IMG/VR virus record: IMGVR_UViG_3300035158_000907
Coordinates: 1-30,420 of that record
From: a virus
Length of the DNA: 30,420 nt
Direction: 5' to 3' (one strand)
The notes beneath the pieces were generated by a model. The model was not told where the DNA came from. It did not search any database and saw only the letters and a program-made list of their open reading frames with translations. Of this stretch, positions 4,465 through 23,240 are shown one piece after another. The position numbers were made by a program, and so were the translations under genes. Numbering within the stretch: position 1 is the stretch's first letter; every line of letters starts with the position of its first letter.

Positions 4465-4472
4465 TATTTATT
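4465..4472 (-). promoter_or_regulatory. Late promoter core fused to a stop codon
   Basis: The minus strand reads GAA TAA ATA AC: the TAA stop of the small membrane protein gene at 4468 is itself part of AATAAATA. The ATG at 4456 follows eight bases after the motif, so initiation at the T4-like position would leave a leader of about two bases. Confidence 0.6.
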
Positions 4473-4707
4473 CAACTCCTTCTTTGCTCTTTTTCAAATC
4501 TTCAATTTCAAGTCTTTTTTTCTGAATGTCCAAATCACGAACTCGAAGGGTCCGCTTGGCAACCTTGATTGCATAGTAACCAGCAATAACCCCCAAAGCA
4601 GCAGCCCCGATTGATATGATAAGATGAGCATGGTTGAGCCATGATGTCAAAGCGGCGGTCAATGAAACCGCCGCCCCCGAAGCAACCTTGATCTGATCAA
4701 CAATCAT
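4468..4707 (-). CDS. Small membrane protein, holin candidate
   Basis: A 79-residue protein from ATG at 4707; an in-frame TTG two codons earlier is less likely. Residues 8-25 (VASGAAVSLTAALTSWL) are amphipathic or hydrophobic. Residues about 28-48 (LIISIGAAALGVIAGYYAIKV) form one clear membrane segment. The tail is highly charged and helical (LDIQKKRLEIEDLKKSKEGVE region), probably a coiled coil. Size and layout suit a type II-like holin, but many phage small membrane proteins look similar. It begins two bases after the stop of the transglutaminase-like gene, suggesting co-translation. A second small membrane protein lies at 6446-6625, so which one is the holin is open. Confidence 0.65.
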   Translation of the reverse strand: MIVDQIKVASGAAVSLTAALTSWLNHAHLIISIGAAALGVIAGYYAIKVAKRTLRVRDLDIQKKRLEIEDLKKSKEGVE

Positions 4708-4709
4708 GA

Positions 4710-5246
4710 TCAATGGCTCCAGACTCTCCAGATTGGATTGGGATAGTCTTTCAATTTGCAGAATTGTCCTGTCGGAAATTCAACAACATACCACCCTTTG
4801 TTGGTGTAAACAGCATTGGTCATGTGCTTGACTCCTGCTCCGATTCCCAGAGCAACTTCATCCATATCGACTCCCAATTTTACGGCCAACAACGAAGATT
4901 CCGAATCCCGGTAGATCATCCGTGTCAAAGCCATCGCCAGAGTCGCCCGATCATCACAGTCTGAAACTTCGGACAGATAACCGTAACCTTCTTGGATCAG
5001 ATTATCTTCCACCGATTTCCACCAACGGGCCAGATGCTTGACATCACGGGCTGCCATCGAACAGAATTCAGAGTCCACAAATTGAGGATGGGCATACTTG
5101 TAAATCTGTTTACATTTCTGCAATGCTTCTCCATAGGAATAGATTTTCTCAGGCTGACCTGTCAATTCCTTGGGAGGATGCGGAATCAGAACTCCTTGAC
5201 CGTCGGTCTTGTTCTGTCTCCCGAAAATGTTGAACAACCATTTCAT
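4710..5246 (-). CDS. Transglutaminase-like cysteine hydrolase candidate
   Basis: A 178-residue protein. The key signature is EVSDCDDRATLAMALTRMI, with Cys97 followed by two Asp residues and a hydrophobic helix. This is the nucleophile region of transglutaminase-like cysteine proteases (DCDDxA type). A candidate catalytic His141 lies in VKHMTNAVYT, followed by a GWYVVEFPTGQF strand with Glu156 as a possible third residue. That fixes a likely Cys-His hydrolase fold but not the substrate. It lies between a lipoprotein gene and a holin candidate, so a lysis role (cell-wall peptide cleavage) is inferred; processing of a virion protein is the main alternative. There is no signal peptide. The start lies two bases after the lipoprotein stop. 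Confidence 0.65.
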   Translation of the reverse strand: MKWLFNIFGRQNKTDGQGVLIPHPPKELTGQPEKIYSYGEALQKCKQIYKYAHPQFVDSEFCSMAARDVKHLARWWKSVEDNLIQEGYGYLSEVSDCDDRATLAMALTRMIYRDSESSLLAVKLGVDMDEVALGIGAGVKHMTNAVYTNKGWYVVEFPTGQFCKLKDYPNPIWRVWSH

Positions 5247-5248
5247 TA

Positions 5249-5788
5249 TTATTCAGACGGTTCAGGAATCGTTGAGAATGTTTCGCCTCCGCTGTCAATC
5301 GCAAATCCTTCAGGAACCACAAAGGATGGTTGCCAGTTGTTGGTTGATGTTTCGGCGACCCCATAAGCCCCAGATGCCAGACTCTTGGTCAGATCATTGT
5401 TATCCCGGTTGATAGCGACATTCTGCCAAGCTCCGATCGCAAATCCAGCCAGAGGTGTGAGTGCTCGGATTGCAGAGATTGCTACATTTTCGGGGATATT
5501 GATTCGACCGATCGCATTGTAGGCAGCCAGAGATGTAGCGGTCATGTCCCGAGGAATTGAGACCGAAGCAATTTCAAATCCTTCTGATTGTTCAACTGTG
5601 TAAGAACCGGGAGGAAGTTTGACTATTACTTCAATCTGATTTTCGGCATTGTACTTGGCCAATTCACCATGCATTGACATGATGCCGATCTGCTTTTGCT
5701 CAACGACTTTTTGAACACTCTCAGGAACAGTTGAGCAACCTACCAGAAAGAGTGAAAGGGAAAGGAATGATGTGATCGCAATTTTCAT
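5249..5788 (-). CDS. Phage-encoded lipoprotein
   Basis: A 179-residue protein with a lipoprotein signal: Met-Lys, a hydrophobic core (IAITSFLSLSLFLVGC) and a lipobox LVGC with Cys18 as the lipidated residue. The start is the ATG at 5788, because it overlaps the upstream stop as ATGA; an ATG five codons earlier would overlap more and has a weaker context. The mature part includes LPPGSYTVEQSEGFEI and a hydrophobic stretch (AIRALTPLAGFAIGAW). It does not look like a short o-spanin (too long, no proline-rich tail), but its membrane anchoring and neighbours suggest envelope disruption or superinfection-related surface change. Exact function unknown. Confidence 0.75.
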   Translation of the reverse strand: MKIAITSFLSLSLFLVGCSTVPESVQKVVEQKQIGIMSMHGELAKYNAENQIEVIVKLPPGSYTVEQSEGFEIASVSIPRDMTATSLAAYNAIGRINIPENVAISAIRALTPLAGFAIGAWQNVAINRDNNDLTKSLASGAYGVAETSTNNWQPSFVVPEGFAIDSGGETFSTIPEPSE

Positions 5789-6420
5789 AGTACTTTTTTC
5801 CATATTGTTTTGGACGGTCCTGTAATCAGTAATCGATAAAAGGGTTGAAAAATGATGAGACCGACTAGTTGCTTGATTCGTTTGATTTGAGTAATTGTCT
5901 GGAGATCATAAGGCCATTGTTCAAGCATCTTGTAGTAGATACGAGCGGCCTCTACTATACCGATATTTATCAGATCAGCATCTTTGGAGTCGATTTTGTT
6001 CAGAAGTTGCTCTCGGTTGGCAATGTTCTGCCATTCTTCAAGTTCGTGGGGATCAATATGAATCACTTGGGCCGGAGAAACCATCATGTCGTGGATTGCA
6101 GATGCGGCCAGAAGTCCTTCCTTTTTTCGATTTCCGATCAGCCATCGAAGCATTTTCCCCAAAAATCCGTGCTTGACCGATGGATAGGATGGGCCGTCCC
6201 AGAGGTATCCCGGCGACGCAATCCACAGTCGATATTCCTTATCGCAATAGACCAGATAGTTCTGGAGTTCCCAACCGTTTTTGTGTCGGTCTCCCTCCAG
6301 AGAAATGATTTCGCATGGATCAGCAATGATATGATCAGTGATCCATGTACCCTCAAAAGAAGATTCCTCTCCGCGCCAAGGAAAGGTCGAATCGGTTGAA
6401 GCTGGACCTCCCGAAGACAC
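5785..6420 (-). CDS. DUF1353-type phage protein
   Basis: About 211 residues from the GTG at 6420. The open frame extends to a GTG at 6501, but that part overlaps the 59-residue membrane gene, so the shorter start is preferred; neither has a clear ribosome binding site. The core matches DUF1353 by pattern: NGWELQNYLVYCDKEYRLW, then SPGYLWDGPSYPS, then LLAASAIHDMM, where the family usually has an ASIP-like loop and an (A)xxHD helix. The family is phage-encoded, of unknown biochemistry, and often lies near lysis genes. The C-terminus is basic and hydrophobic (LIIFQPFYRLLITG), perhaps membrane-associated. Its TGA overlaps the lipoprotein ATG. Confidence 0.65.
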   Translation of the reverse strand: MSSGGPASTDSTFPWRGEESSFEGTWITDHIIADPCEIISLEGDRHKNGWELQNYLVYCDKEYRLWIASPGYLWDGPSYPSVKHGFLGKMLRWLIGNRKKEGLLAASAIHDMMVSPAQVIHIDPHELEEWQNIANREQLLNKIDSKDADLINIGIVEAARIYYKMLEQWPYDLQTITQIKRIKQLVGLIIFQPFYRLLITGPSKTIWKKVL

Positions 6421-6445
6421 GAAAAGGAATCTTGGGTTAGATGTG

Positions 6446-6625
6446 TTAGTCTTCTTTCTTTTTCTCCAGCGGAGAATTGGCAAAGGCAGCAGCAATTGCA
6501 CTCACAGCCGCAATGACTGCTGTGAGAGTATCCTGTACATTGCCAAGGAAGACAAGAGCAGCCGAAAGACCGCCAGCCCCCAGAGAGAAGACCTTACCGA
6601 TAATTTGTTTGGCTCGATGTGTCAT
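6446..6625 (-). CDS. 59-residue Ala-rich membrane protein, holin candidate
   Basis: A short gene from ATG at 6625 to TAA at 6446. Residues about 9-28 (GKVFSLGAGGLSAALVFLGN) and 33-50 (LTAVIAAVSAIAAAFANS) form two hydrophobic segments, and the C-terminus is charged (LEKKKED). This is the layout of small class II holins. It has its own late promoter motif fused to the upstream stop codon and sits at the head of the lysis-like island. Its length explains why automated calls with a 60-codon cutoff would miss it. Without homology data, holin versus other small membrane protein cannot be separated. Confidence 0.7.
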   Translation of the reverse strand: MTHRAKQIIGKVFSLGAGGLSAALVFLGNVQDTLTAVIAAVSAIAAAFANSPLEKKKED

Positions 6626-6632
6626 AGGTCTT

Positions 6633-6640
6633 TATTTATT
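6633..6640 (-). promoter_or_regulatory. Late promoter core fused to a stop codon
   Basis: The minus strand reads CAA TAA ATA AAG: the TAA stop of the DUF4376 gene lies inside AATAAATA. The ATG at 6625 follows seven bases after the motif. It could drive the whole lysis-like island separately from the fibre genes upstream. Confidence 0.6.
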
Positions 6641-20740: not shown

Positions 20741-20748
20741 TATTTATA
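20741..20748 (-). promoter_or_regulatory. Perfect late promoter core fused to a stop codon (gp25)
   Basis: The minus strand reads CTA TAA ATA ACC: the TAA stop of the 440-residue gene lies inside a perfect TATAAATA. The ATG at 20733 follows seven bases after the motif, leaving almost no leader. Confidence 0.7.
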
Positions 20749-22066
20749 GGCCAAAAGAAGGAATCCCATCAAAAGAAAACGAAGGAGAGATGGAGCCGCT
20801 GATACTTGCTCCCAGAGGCAGCGAGATTGATCCGGAAATTCCGGCATCTGCCAAGAAATCGGTGATCTTGAAATCTGCAATATCGATCAAAGCTCCCAAA
20901 CCTATTGTCTGGAAGAACGATTTTCCGGCCCCCAGAATGAAATCGGTGGTCAGATACCTTCTCCAGTTGTGACGAAAATGATACAAAGCTTCCACATAAC
21001 GATGAAATTGTCTTTCCAAAGACCGAATCCTCTCAAAAACTCGACCCCCAATGATGTCCAGAGGAGTGAATCCAAAAATGGATATGCTTTCAATGGCCCC
21101 GACGATCTGGGCCTGAAGAGATCGAACCGGAGCCAATGCACTTTGGATTGCTTGATTGGCAGCATTTATGGCCATTCCTTTCAGATTTCCGACGACCGAA
21201 TCAATGATTCCGGTGGCCAGAGAAGCAATATCAGGAGGGTTGATCAAGCTGAAAGCAAGCGATCCTGCTGCACCGGGAAATTTTCCAAACAGACCATTGA
21301 TTCCAATATCGATTGCGTCAAGCAGTTTACCCTTGACTTCTGAGACTGCATAGGAAACGACATTCTCAAAAATGAGATCAGGAGCAATCACACCACAGGC
21401 ATTGGTCCATGCATTGAAGGGAGAAGACAGAAAATTGGTCACTATTTGAATCTTTCCGTCCAGAATATCAATCGAATTGTTCAGCACATCAGTAATCTGA
21501 GATGCAATCTGTCCCTTGAGGTTGGCCATGAATGCTTGAGGATTTGAGGCCAGATCAAGCAAATTGAGATCAATCCCCAGAATTGAAACATCAAATGGAA
21601 GGTCTGGAATAATGCTTCCGATCGCACTTGCAATCTTGGACAAAGCAAGAGCTTGCATATCTTCAAACAGAGCAGTGATTCGTCTTTCCCATTCAATTTC
21701 CGGAATTCTCAAAGTTGGCAGAATGGGCGAAGATAACTGAAATGGAAATCCAGATAGGTCAATTGCAATACCCGCAGTATTGAGTGCATTGGCTATTGCG
21801 GCTGCCTCGTCCGAAAGACCTGCTATTGAAAGGATAGATGGAAGAGTGACTGCCGAATTCAATGCAGATACAATGTCACTCTTTTGGGGGATCAGACTCA
21901 GAGGGTCCAGAGTCGGAGCAAGGCCACCCAGATCAATCGAGCCGGAAATTCCCAGTCCTCCGATGTCAAAAGAAACATCGGAACCAAAGGAAAGATTTCC
22001 GATCGATGCCGGAAGACTTGGAATATTGAATTCCGGAACATCAAAACTGAAATAGGAATCAAGCAT
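20744..22066 (-). CDS. Unrecognised 440-residue hub-region virion protein
   Basis: I do not recognise the family. The start is the ATG at 22066, which overlaps the end of gp5 by eight bases; the open frame upstream of it is only an antisense-like extension through gp5. The protein is rich in Ile, Leu, Ser, Gly and Ala with few charges. It contains Gly-Ser-Ile strands at both ends (GLGISGSIDLGG near the start; DAGISGSISLPLGASISGSI near the end), and long amphipathic stretches between (SKIASAIGSIIPDLPFDVSI, GQIASQITDVLNNSIDILDG, SLATGIIDSVVGNLKGMAIN). A more charged segment (ERIRSLERQFHRYVEALYHF) lies before the end. Lying between gp5 and gp25, it is likely a baseplate-hub or tail-tip part; membrane contact is a possibility only. 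Confidence 0.75.
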   Translation of the reverse strand: MLDSYFSFDVPEFNIPSLPASIGNLSFGSDVSFDIGGLGISGSIDLGGLAPTLDPLSLIPQKSDIVSALNSAVTLPSILSIAGLSDEAAAIANALNTAGIAIDLSGFPFQLSSPILPTLRIPEIEWERRITALFEDMQALALSKIASAIGSIIPDLPFDVSILGIDLNLLDLASNPQAFMANLKGQIASQITDVLNNSIDILDGKIQIVTNFLSSPFNAWTNACGVIAPDLIFENVVSYAVSEVKGKLLDAIDIGINGLFGKFPGAAGSLAFSLINPPDIASLATGIIDSVVGNLKGMAINAANQAIQSALAPVRSLQAQIVGAIESISIFGFTPLDIIGGRVFERIRSLERQFHRYVEALYHFRHNWRRYLTTDFILGAGKSFFQTIGLGALIDIADFKITDFLADAGISGSISLPLGASISGSISPSFSFDGIPSFGL

Positions 22067-23240
22067 TGAGATCGATAATAGGTGCGTTGAGATCGATAAT
22101 GGAAGCCGAGTTGATCTGAATCGGACCATTGGCCGAGGTGACTTGGCCACCCAGATAAATTTCGCTGGCCGATCCTTGGGTCGATTCCTGAAGTGAACCA
22201 CCAATAGAAATTATCTCGTTGATTCCGATATTCATTGCATGATTCATTCTGTAATCTTCAATCACATCCTTGAGGACAGTCTGTCTCAATTCTCCTTCGA
22301 TCAATTCGGTACGATTTCCCTTGACATGAACATAATGATCACCTTCGATCAGAGTTCGGGCATCGCCTTCGATCGTAACATTGCAATTCCCCTTGATATT
22401 CACATTGGAGTCCCTGACCACGATTCGGTACTCGTCACCCACAATCACCACGGTCTCATCACCCTTGGGTGTCCACTCAGAATAGGTTCCGCTCTTATGC
22501 ATTGTTGAGACTCGTTCAAAATCCGGAGTCACATCAAATTCCTGAATATGCATTGTCTTCTCAGGCTCTTCCCCTTGGTCACCCGAAAATTTTTCTTTGC
22601 CTCGTCTCAAGATTCCAGAAGGATTTCCAGCTTGATCATTGACAGGCTCCAGTTCAATCTTTCGTTCAAAGGCATGAACATGATTTTTAGGATACTGAAC
22701 CTGAATGATCTCGTCCAGCGGAGGCAATTCCCATTCGTCCGCAAAGGCGATCGGAACAGGATCAAGATTCTCTCGATGCTCGTCCTTTTTCAGATAGGAA
22801 AATGATTCTTCATATTTCTTATCCTTGGAAACAGCCTCTTCAGGTGTATCAATTTGATCTACCTTGTCTCCATAAGGATATTGCTGATTAGGGTCAGAGA
22901 ATCCTACCGAATAATCAACTGATCCACTCATTGAGGGAATTGCCCCCATGATGATCGGGTCTTGAGCACTCTTCCCGTCCCTAAAAAACCCGACAACCCA
23001 TGAACCTCGTACCAGTCCGGTCGGAGATTGGCCAACTCCGCTGGTGGATGCTGATGTGACTGGCATCATTACATGAGCCCACGGAAGAGTCGTGGTCGGA
23101 ATGTATTCTTTGGACTCAGTATGGTAACCAAAGCAACGGACTCGGACCCTGCCCATCTGCTCTGGGTCCAGAACATCCTCAATGACTCCGGTGAAAAAAG
23201 AGGTGTTGAGATAATTATCTTTGGTTTCAGGTGTCAACAT
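22059..23240 (-). CDS. gp5: Baseplate hub/central spike gp5-like, without lysozyme domain
   Basis: A 393-residue protein from ATG at 23240; a TTG two codons earlier is less likely. Residues about 12-105 form a gp5/VgrG OB-fold (FFTGVIEDVLDPEQMGRVRV, then SWVVGFFRDGKSAQDPIIMG). Residues about 110-250 are a charged linker. From about 255 to the end there are short VxGxxx repeats of the triple beta-helix needle (VVRDSNVNIKGNCNVTIEGD, then VHVKGNRTELIEG), ending with a tandem IIDLNA-P-IIDLNA. T4 gp5 (575 residues) carries a lysozyme domain between these parts; here no lysozyme motif is seen, and the length fits its absence. It follows the gp27-like hub gene, the partner on which the needle sits. 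Confidence 0.88.
   Translation of the reverse strand: MLTPETKDNYLNTSFFTGVIEDVLDPEQMGRVRVRCFGYHTESKEYIPTTTLPWAHVMMPVTSASTSGVGQSPTGLVRGSWVVGFFRDGKSAQDPIIMGAIPSMSGSVDYSVGFSDPNQQYPYGDKVDQIDTPEEAVSKDKKYEESFSYLKKDEHRENLDPVPIAFADEWELPPLDEIIQVQYPKNHVHAFERKIELEPVNDQAGNPSGILRRGKEKFSGDQGEEPEKTMHIQEFDVTPDFERVSTMHKSGTYSEWTPKGDETVVIVGDEYRIVVRDSNVNIKGNCNVTIEGDARTLIEGDHYVHVKGNRTELIEGELRQTVLKDVIEDYRMNHAMNIGINEIISIGGSLQESTQGSASEIYLGGQVTSANGPIQINSASIIDLNAPIIDLNA

Follow-up and report, generated by a model that had tools for sequence, protein, structure and literature searches.

A virus record of 30,420 bases (IMGVR_UViG_3300035158_000907) makes up the window, in full. Its baseplate, fibre and neck-type genes are those of a T4-like phage, from whose larger genome these 30 kb are a fragment. 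The largest gene has approximately 30% identity to its counterparts in Pelagibacter, Pseudomonas pf16, C48C1, cyanophage and rhizobial myoviruses, which are the closest annotated relatives. Five consecutive genes on the minus strand (6625..4468) form an island, in the order TM59, DUF1353, lipoprotein, Cys-His protein and TM79. On its two sides are a DUF4376 fibre-assembly gene and the gene for a 111-aa homologue of the L-shaped fibre assembly protein. The features of the island are as follows.

6633..6639, minus strand: ATAAATA late-promoter-like motif at the island head, 8 nt before the TM59 start
6446..6625, minus strand: TM59, 59 aa, with hydrophobic segments at 8-26 and 30-48; predicted to be holin-like from its size and layout
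5785..6420, minus strand: DUF1353-like protein, 211 aa from a likely GTG start; the ORF is open from 6501
5249..5788, minus strand: lipoprotein, 179 aa from the ATG in the ATGA overlap with DUF1353; its signal peptide ends in the lipobox LVGC (Cys18)
4710..5246, minus strand: Cys-His protein, 178 aa, containing SDCDDRA ... GVKHMTN ... WYVVEFPTG
4468..4707, minus strand: TM79, 79 aa, with one strong hydrophobic segment, a weaker one ahead of it and a charged C-terminus; holin-like
4465..4471, minus strand: ATAAATA late-promoter-like motif at the island end, 9 nt before the next fibre-assembly gene

The initial annotation described a tight group of five genes between fibre genes, joined by an ATGA overlap and two-base gaps, and both descriptions were confirmed; the gaps between the last four genes are -4, 2 and 2 bases. 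The DUF1353 ORF has no ATG start; its likely GTG start, at 6420, follows TM59 after 25 bases. The lipoprotein would span 5249-5803 if its first ATG were used. Close spacing is widespread in this operon and by itself does not make the island special. Unlike the spacing, the clustering of hydrophobic segments and a lipobox within these five genes is special. Three of the island proteins exceed a Kyte-Doolittle value of 1.7 over 19 residues (1.72, 1.97 and 2.04), a threshold passed outside the island only by an ORF that is cut by the contig end (1.86); the ORF at 20744 reaches 1.62. This last ORF (20744-22060), located between gp25 and gp5, encodes a 438-aa protein that is rich in Gly and Ile, includes a hydrophobic stretch and matches no family significantly. 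The adjacent gp5 homologue (22059-23237) has the OB and C-terminal trimerisation domains without an intervening lysozyme domain.

The ATAAATA motif, which resembles the late promoters of T4 and cyanophages, is present in 16 copies in the window, against 2.5 expected. For 13 of these a gene start follows within 60 nt, where random positions would give 0.8. Most copies are 8-53 nt ahead of a start codon, and several overlap the stop of the preceding gene, 8-12 nt from the ATG. If the copies are promoters, very short leaders would follow from this placement. The late promoter of cyanomyoviruses is NATAAATA (PMC2984593). With a copy of the motif at its head and another at its end, the island has the look of a separate late unit. 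For the dedicated promoter proposed earlier, the ATAAATA copy ahead of TM59 is a candidate; no sigma-70-like site stands out, with 8 identified in a scan against 6.9 expected and none just upstream.

The small membrane proteins and the lipoprotein have few likenesses to known families. There was no match to TM59 in the family libraries, and the best holin-family match for either TM protein, that of TM79 to the holin phrog_4237, has an E value of only 0.03. The lipoprotein, likewise without a match in the libraries searched, has Ser at +2 and would therefore be expected to be sorted to the outer membrane. A check of the island for spanins returned the Rz-like spanin phrog_1267 at an E value of only 0.2, together with the lipobox of the lipoprotein. 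No PADLOC profile for anti-phage defence systems matched any of the five proteins at E 1.

The Cys-His protein had been put forward as a hydrolase on the basis of its motifs, an impression that the family searches did not bear out. No relative or hydrolase family was found for it, and the profiles of the Transglutaminase-like, C93, Agglutinin_C and NlpC-P60 cysteine hydrolases (PF01841, PF06035, PF18021 and PF00877) were unmatched in the window at E 10. A single-sequence AlphaFold model has a pLDDT of 39. From its residue layout the protein is a possible cysteine hydrolase. Two apparent leads were discarded: a degenerate DNA pattern for the cysteine-hydrolase layout DCDD...H..N...ExP identified nine loci, all chance matches, and one hit in the genome contigs (L209) was a 23-residue chance match. 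No peptidoglycan hydrolase family matched the island proteins, so the island has no demonstrated wall-cutting enzyme. The absence of an endolysin from the 30,420-base window, reported in the initial annotation, holds for the families searched. It carries little weight because the window is a fragment of a larger T4-like phage genome, elsewhere in which lysis genes are possible.

The second gene of the island is the one with recognizable relatives. Its assignment to DUF1353 had been made from sequence, and PF07087 scores the protein at 17.3 bits (DNA) and 16.8 bits (protein), below the Pfam gathering cut-off of 22.5 bits. The assignment is upheld instead by profile comparison: against 17 phage DUF1353 proteins, hhalign gave a probability of 94.2% (E 1.1e-7, 56 columns), and the family core GFxxDGASxP...HD is homologous to WDGPSYP...GLLAASAIHD in the window protein, with the homology spanning the N-terminal half. 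An HMM of the 17 members scores the protein at 11.0 bits, and a bridging relative, L170 (genome G002), scores 24.1 bits with PF07087, above the cut-off. The structure model of the window protein (pLDDT 70, pTM 0.70) has two clear matches in a library of viral structures, of which the top one is unnamed and the second is named DUF1353 (probability 0.97). The same model had no significant match in a fold search of the PDB, in which no PLA2 fold was seen, and gave one VIA row (Z 2.0), results equally compatible with the presence or the absence of such a fold. Judged by profiles and model, the window protein is a divergent DUF1353 member. With L086, L169 and L170 it makes up a subfamily, and its C-terminal hydrophobic stretch is conserved.

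A biochemical function has been demonstrated for one member of the family. TtaP, the DUF1353 protein encoded in the typhoid toxin islet, has phospholipase A2 activity and a dyad made up of a His and an Asp 15 residues downstream, and its D85A mutant has no activity in the assay of that paper (PMC11525133). TtaP and the muramidase TtsA are encoded in the same islet, and the authors propose the same activity for other DUF1353 proteins (PMC11525133). Phage lysis is not treated in the available text of this function paper, and in the available parts of phage papers DUF1353 genes appear in genome tables.

Does the window protein retain this active site? H113-D114 (numbering of window 5785-6429) is invariant in the four subfamily members, as is the corresponding H62-D63 in 17 of 17 others. 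At the column of the dyad Asp (D85 of TtaP), all four subfamily members have Ala and the 17 other proteins have an invariant Asp, D77; this alignment crosses an insertion, and HMMER offers a second solution that pairs a different Asp, for the window protein only. An acidic residue, Asp or Glu, is present two positions before the Ala column in 4 of 4 members, and this conserved residue might replace the missing dyad Asp. Either the active site of the subfamily would be re-registered, or the subfamily would not be an active PLA2.

The neighbours of DUF1353 genes were investigated in a sample of 17 phages. Fnu1 and Cygsa01 were left out of the test, their neighbours having been known beforehand, and the remaining 15 had been chosen for organism variety with their neighbours disregarded. 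The following genes are found near DUF1353.

Fnu1: amidase
Cygsa01: endolysin
DMCA: M15 peptidase and lipoprotein
Carin1: amidase, 3-TM protein, lipoprotein and 61-aa TM protein
SYP: lysozyme
FNU4: cell-wall hydrolase and annotated holin
Derbicus: phrog_894 endolysin (5e-27)
Bjorn: lysozyme
Bakedbeans: phrog_3427 holin (3e-29), overlapping DUF1353
Melnitz-3, a T4-like marine phage: Rz-like spanin pair (5e-17, 8e-15) directly before DUF1353

A peptidoglycan hydrolase is within three genes of DUF1353 in 6 of the 15 phages, against 0.70 expected. The associated P value is about 2e-5 for one hydrolase per genome and about 9e-4 for two. These values are indicative, since the phages were few and were chosen by hand for variety, and the base rate was modelled in a simple way. 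A holin or Rz-like spanin pair adjoins DUF1353 in two further phages. The other seven (pv27, GAP32, F207, D6, FLC8, the Helicobacter prophage and HTVC008M) are without a nearby lysis gene by annotation or family match. In HTVC008M a protein with an N-terminal TM segment and a small lipoprotein directly follow DUF1353, and have a spanin-like look with no family match. As in the window, a lipoprotein directly adjoins DUF1353 in DMCA, Carin1 and Melnitz-3. In Melnitz-3 (MZ577098; L195 2468-3203) the spanin pair ends exactly at DUF1353, and its lipoprotein gene overlaps the inner-membrane gene. The Melnitz text on lysis, as far as available, discusses curli pores and gp67 and does not mention this pair. 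The tie between DUF1353 and phage lysis genes looks general.

Is the island, then, a set of genes for lysis? We consider the chances about even that it is a late envelope-attack module. Its role would probably be accessory to lysis, and it would most likely be a lysis cassette, accessory or complete, that was inserted among the fibre genes. Part of the backing for this comes from the recurrence of DUF1353 genes in phage lysis cassettes, often by lipoproteins or small membrane proteins. The lysis module proposed in the initial annotation gains from this recurrence, from the phospholipase activity of TtaP and from the late motifs, and is weakened by the lack of a demonstrated peptidoglycan-cutting enzyme. 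Also against the lysis reading are the Ala at the dyad Asp column of the window subfamily, the relatives with a lone DUF1353 gene (below), the seven sampled phages with no recognised lysis gene near DUF1353, the missing family matches of the other four proteins and the PDB search without a PLA2 fold. The biochemical activities of all five products, and their joint action, are ones that we infer. TM59, TM79 or both would be small holin-like proteins of the inner membrane, opening or depolarising it. The DUF1353 protein would bind membrane phospholipids and may hydrolyse them, possibly anchored to the membrane by its C-terminal hydrophobic stretch. Membranes are destabilised by lysophospholipids. 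In the outer membrane the lipoprotein would help to open it, in a spanin- or disruptin-like role, and the Cys-His protein may cut peptide bonds of the wall. A much bolder extension strikes us as unlikely, namely that DUF1353 lipid hydrolases make up a class of lysis proteins, common among phages but so far overlooked, which adds the cutting of membrane lipids to the steps carried out by holins, endolysins and spanins. The island would then be a version that achieves lysis entirely with its two small membrane proteins, its lipoprotein, a diverged member of DUF1353 and a cysteine hydrolase of a new kind.

Relatives have in part the arrangements that the initial annotation took to speak against a lysis module, which were genes carried apart from each other and conventional lysis genes elsewhere. 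In L086 and L169 a close DUF1353 relative is present without the other four island genes. The closest relatives of the window protein (L086, L166, L167 and L169) stand alone behind the same tail genes and ahead of a fibre gene. The genome of L169 (G001; 141,905 bases) has a Hydrolase_2 endolysin approximately 30 kb from DUF1353 (1.8e-12; phrog_938 3.6e-19). A 108-base terminal repeat of the same genome lies within a repetitive fibre gene. Downstream of DUF1353, fibre-like proteins in both loci (L086 18200-20538; L169 7265-8871) start with apparent signal peptides. Such peptides are odd for tail fibres, which assemble in the cytoplasm.

The main rival explanation begins from the position of the island inside fibre genes, one of them encoding the L-shaped fibre assembly homologue. 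The island might serve receptor masking or superinfection exclusion, with the lipoprotein coating or jamming the receptor late in infection and so sparing progeny from debris, and the membrane proteins blocking re-injection. A site among receptor-binding fibre genes would fit, as a fibre and its blocker would co-evolve, and the phage T5 lipoprotein Llp does jam its receptor, FhuA (PMC9586334). However, the lipoprotein of the window has no family match in the libraries searched, and masking leaves both DUF1353 and its association with lysis genes unexplained; we regard this explanation as improbable. It is also possible, although we would be rather surprised by it, that DUF1353 is a virion or tail-assembly protein and that the other four genes are unrelated to it. 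DUF1353 is directly between a tail protein gene, no more than about 10 nt away, and a fibre gene in L086, L166, L167 and L169, and DUF1353 genes in phage records (L194, L195, L197 and L203) are often labelled 'tail assembly chaperone', apparently via phrog_1158. This label is probably wrong, because the characterised member of the family is a phospholipase A2. No chaperone or tail domain was found in the DUF1353 protein, two DUF1353 proteins have an N-terminal TM segment, and in Melnitz-3, HTVC008M, Carin1, SYP, Bjorn and others the gene is beside membrane or lysis genes and away from tail genes, all of which argue against a role in the tail.

Additionally, the five genes may be a chance run of unrelated morons that were acquired recently, the fibre locus being variable, and that share no function. 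Detectable relatives are lacking for four of the five proteins: none came from approximately 200 loci for the Cys-His protein, the lipoprotein, TM59 or TM79, from phage records for the Cys-His protein or the lipoprotein, or from viral and genome contigs for the Cys-His protein. Among 74 loci of the flanking fibre-assembly gene, L022 is the only one in which two small TM proteins are encoded close to it; one of the two matches holins weakly, and on a reading of the sequence a UDP-galactopyranose mutase-like gene precedes them. L022 is evidence that the fibre locus can acquire membrane genes, and says nothing on their role. Set against a chance run are the coupling of the genes (-4, 2 and 2 nt), which with late-promoter motifs at both ends suggests one co-transcribed unit, and the concentration of envelope features in these five genes. 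We give this explanation, too, a low probability, well short of that of the envelope-attack module.

Annotation of lysis genes is poor in T4-like marine phages. Should DUF1353 enzymes turn out to be part of lysis, many genes now called 'tail assembly chaperone' would be renamed, and it would become possible to find the lysis genes of these phages. Whether phage release includes the cutting of lipids could then be tested directly, and there would be a hint at how the typhoid toxin islet came by a DUF1353 gene next to a muramidase.

Several known systems resemble the island in part. TtaP belongs to the same Pfam family, shares the His-Asp pair with the window protein and is encoded near a phage-type muramidase; the window protein, a putative enzyme, differs in its greater length, in a C-terminal extension and in the absence of the second dyad Asp from the aligned position. 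For Wolbachia phage WO a patatin-type lytic cassette has been proposed, in which a phospholipase-like gene is by a small holin-like protein, near tail genes and with no canonical endolysin adjoining (PMC9203015). Patatin, however, is a phospholipase of unrelated fold, the description includes neither a lipoprotein nor a Cys-His gene, and that cassette is likewise a proposal (PMC9203015). The Methylophilales phage Melnitz-3 is a T4-like relative in the Kyanoviridae in which DUF1353 adjoins a lipoprotein and small membrane proteins, the region comprising the Rz-like spanin pair, DUF1353 and a coiled-coil protein with a C-terminal TM segment. It differs in being beside DNA primase and reductase genes, in its clear spanin matches, and in a DUF1353 protein with a canonical dyad and an N-terminal TM segment; no Cys-His gene was seen in it. 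Compared with the lambda-type holin-endolysin-spanin cassette, the island has no recognisable endolysin or spanin and no member that is homologous by any search, yet the two have in common small membrane proteins, a lipoprotein and a candidate enzyme in a late operon.
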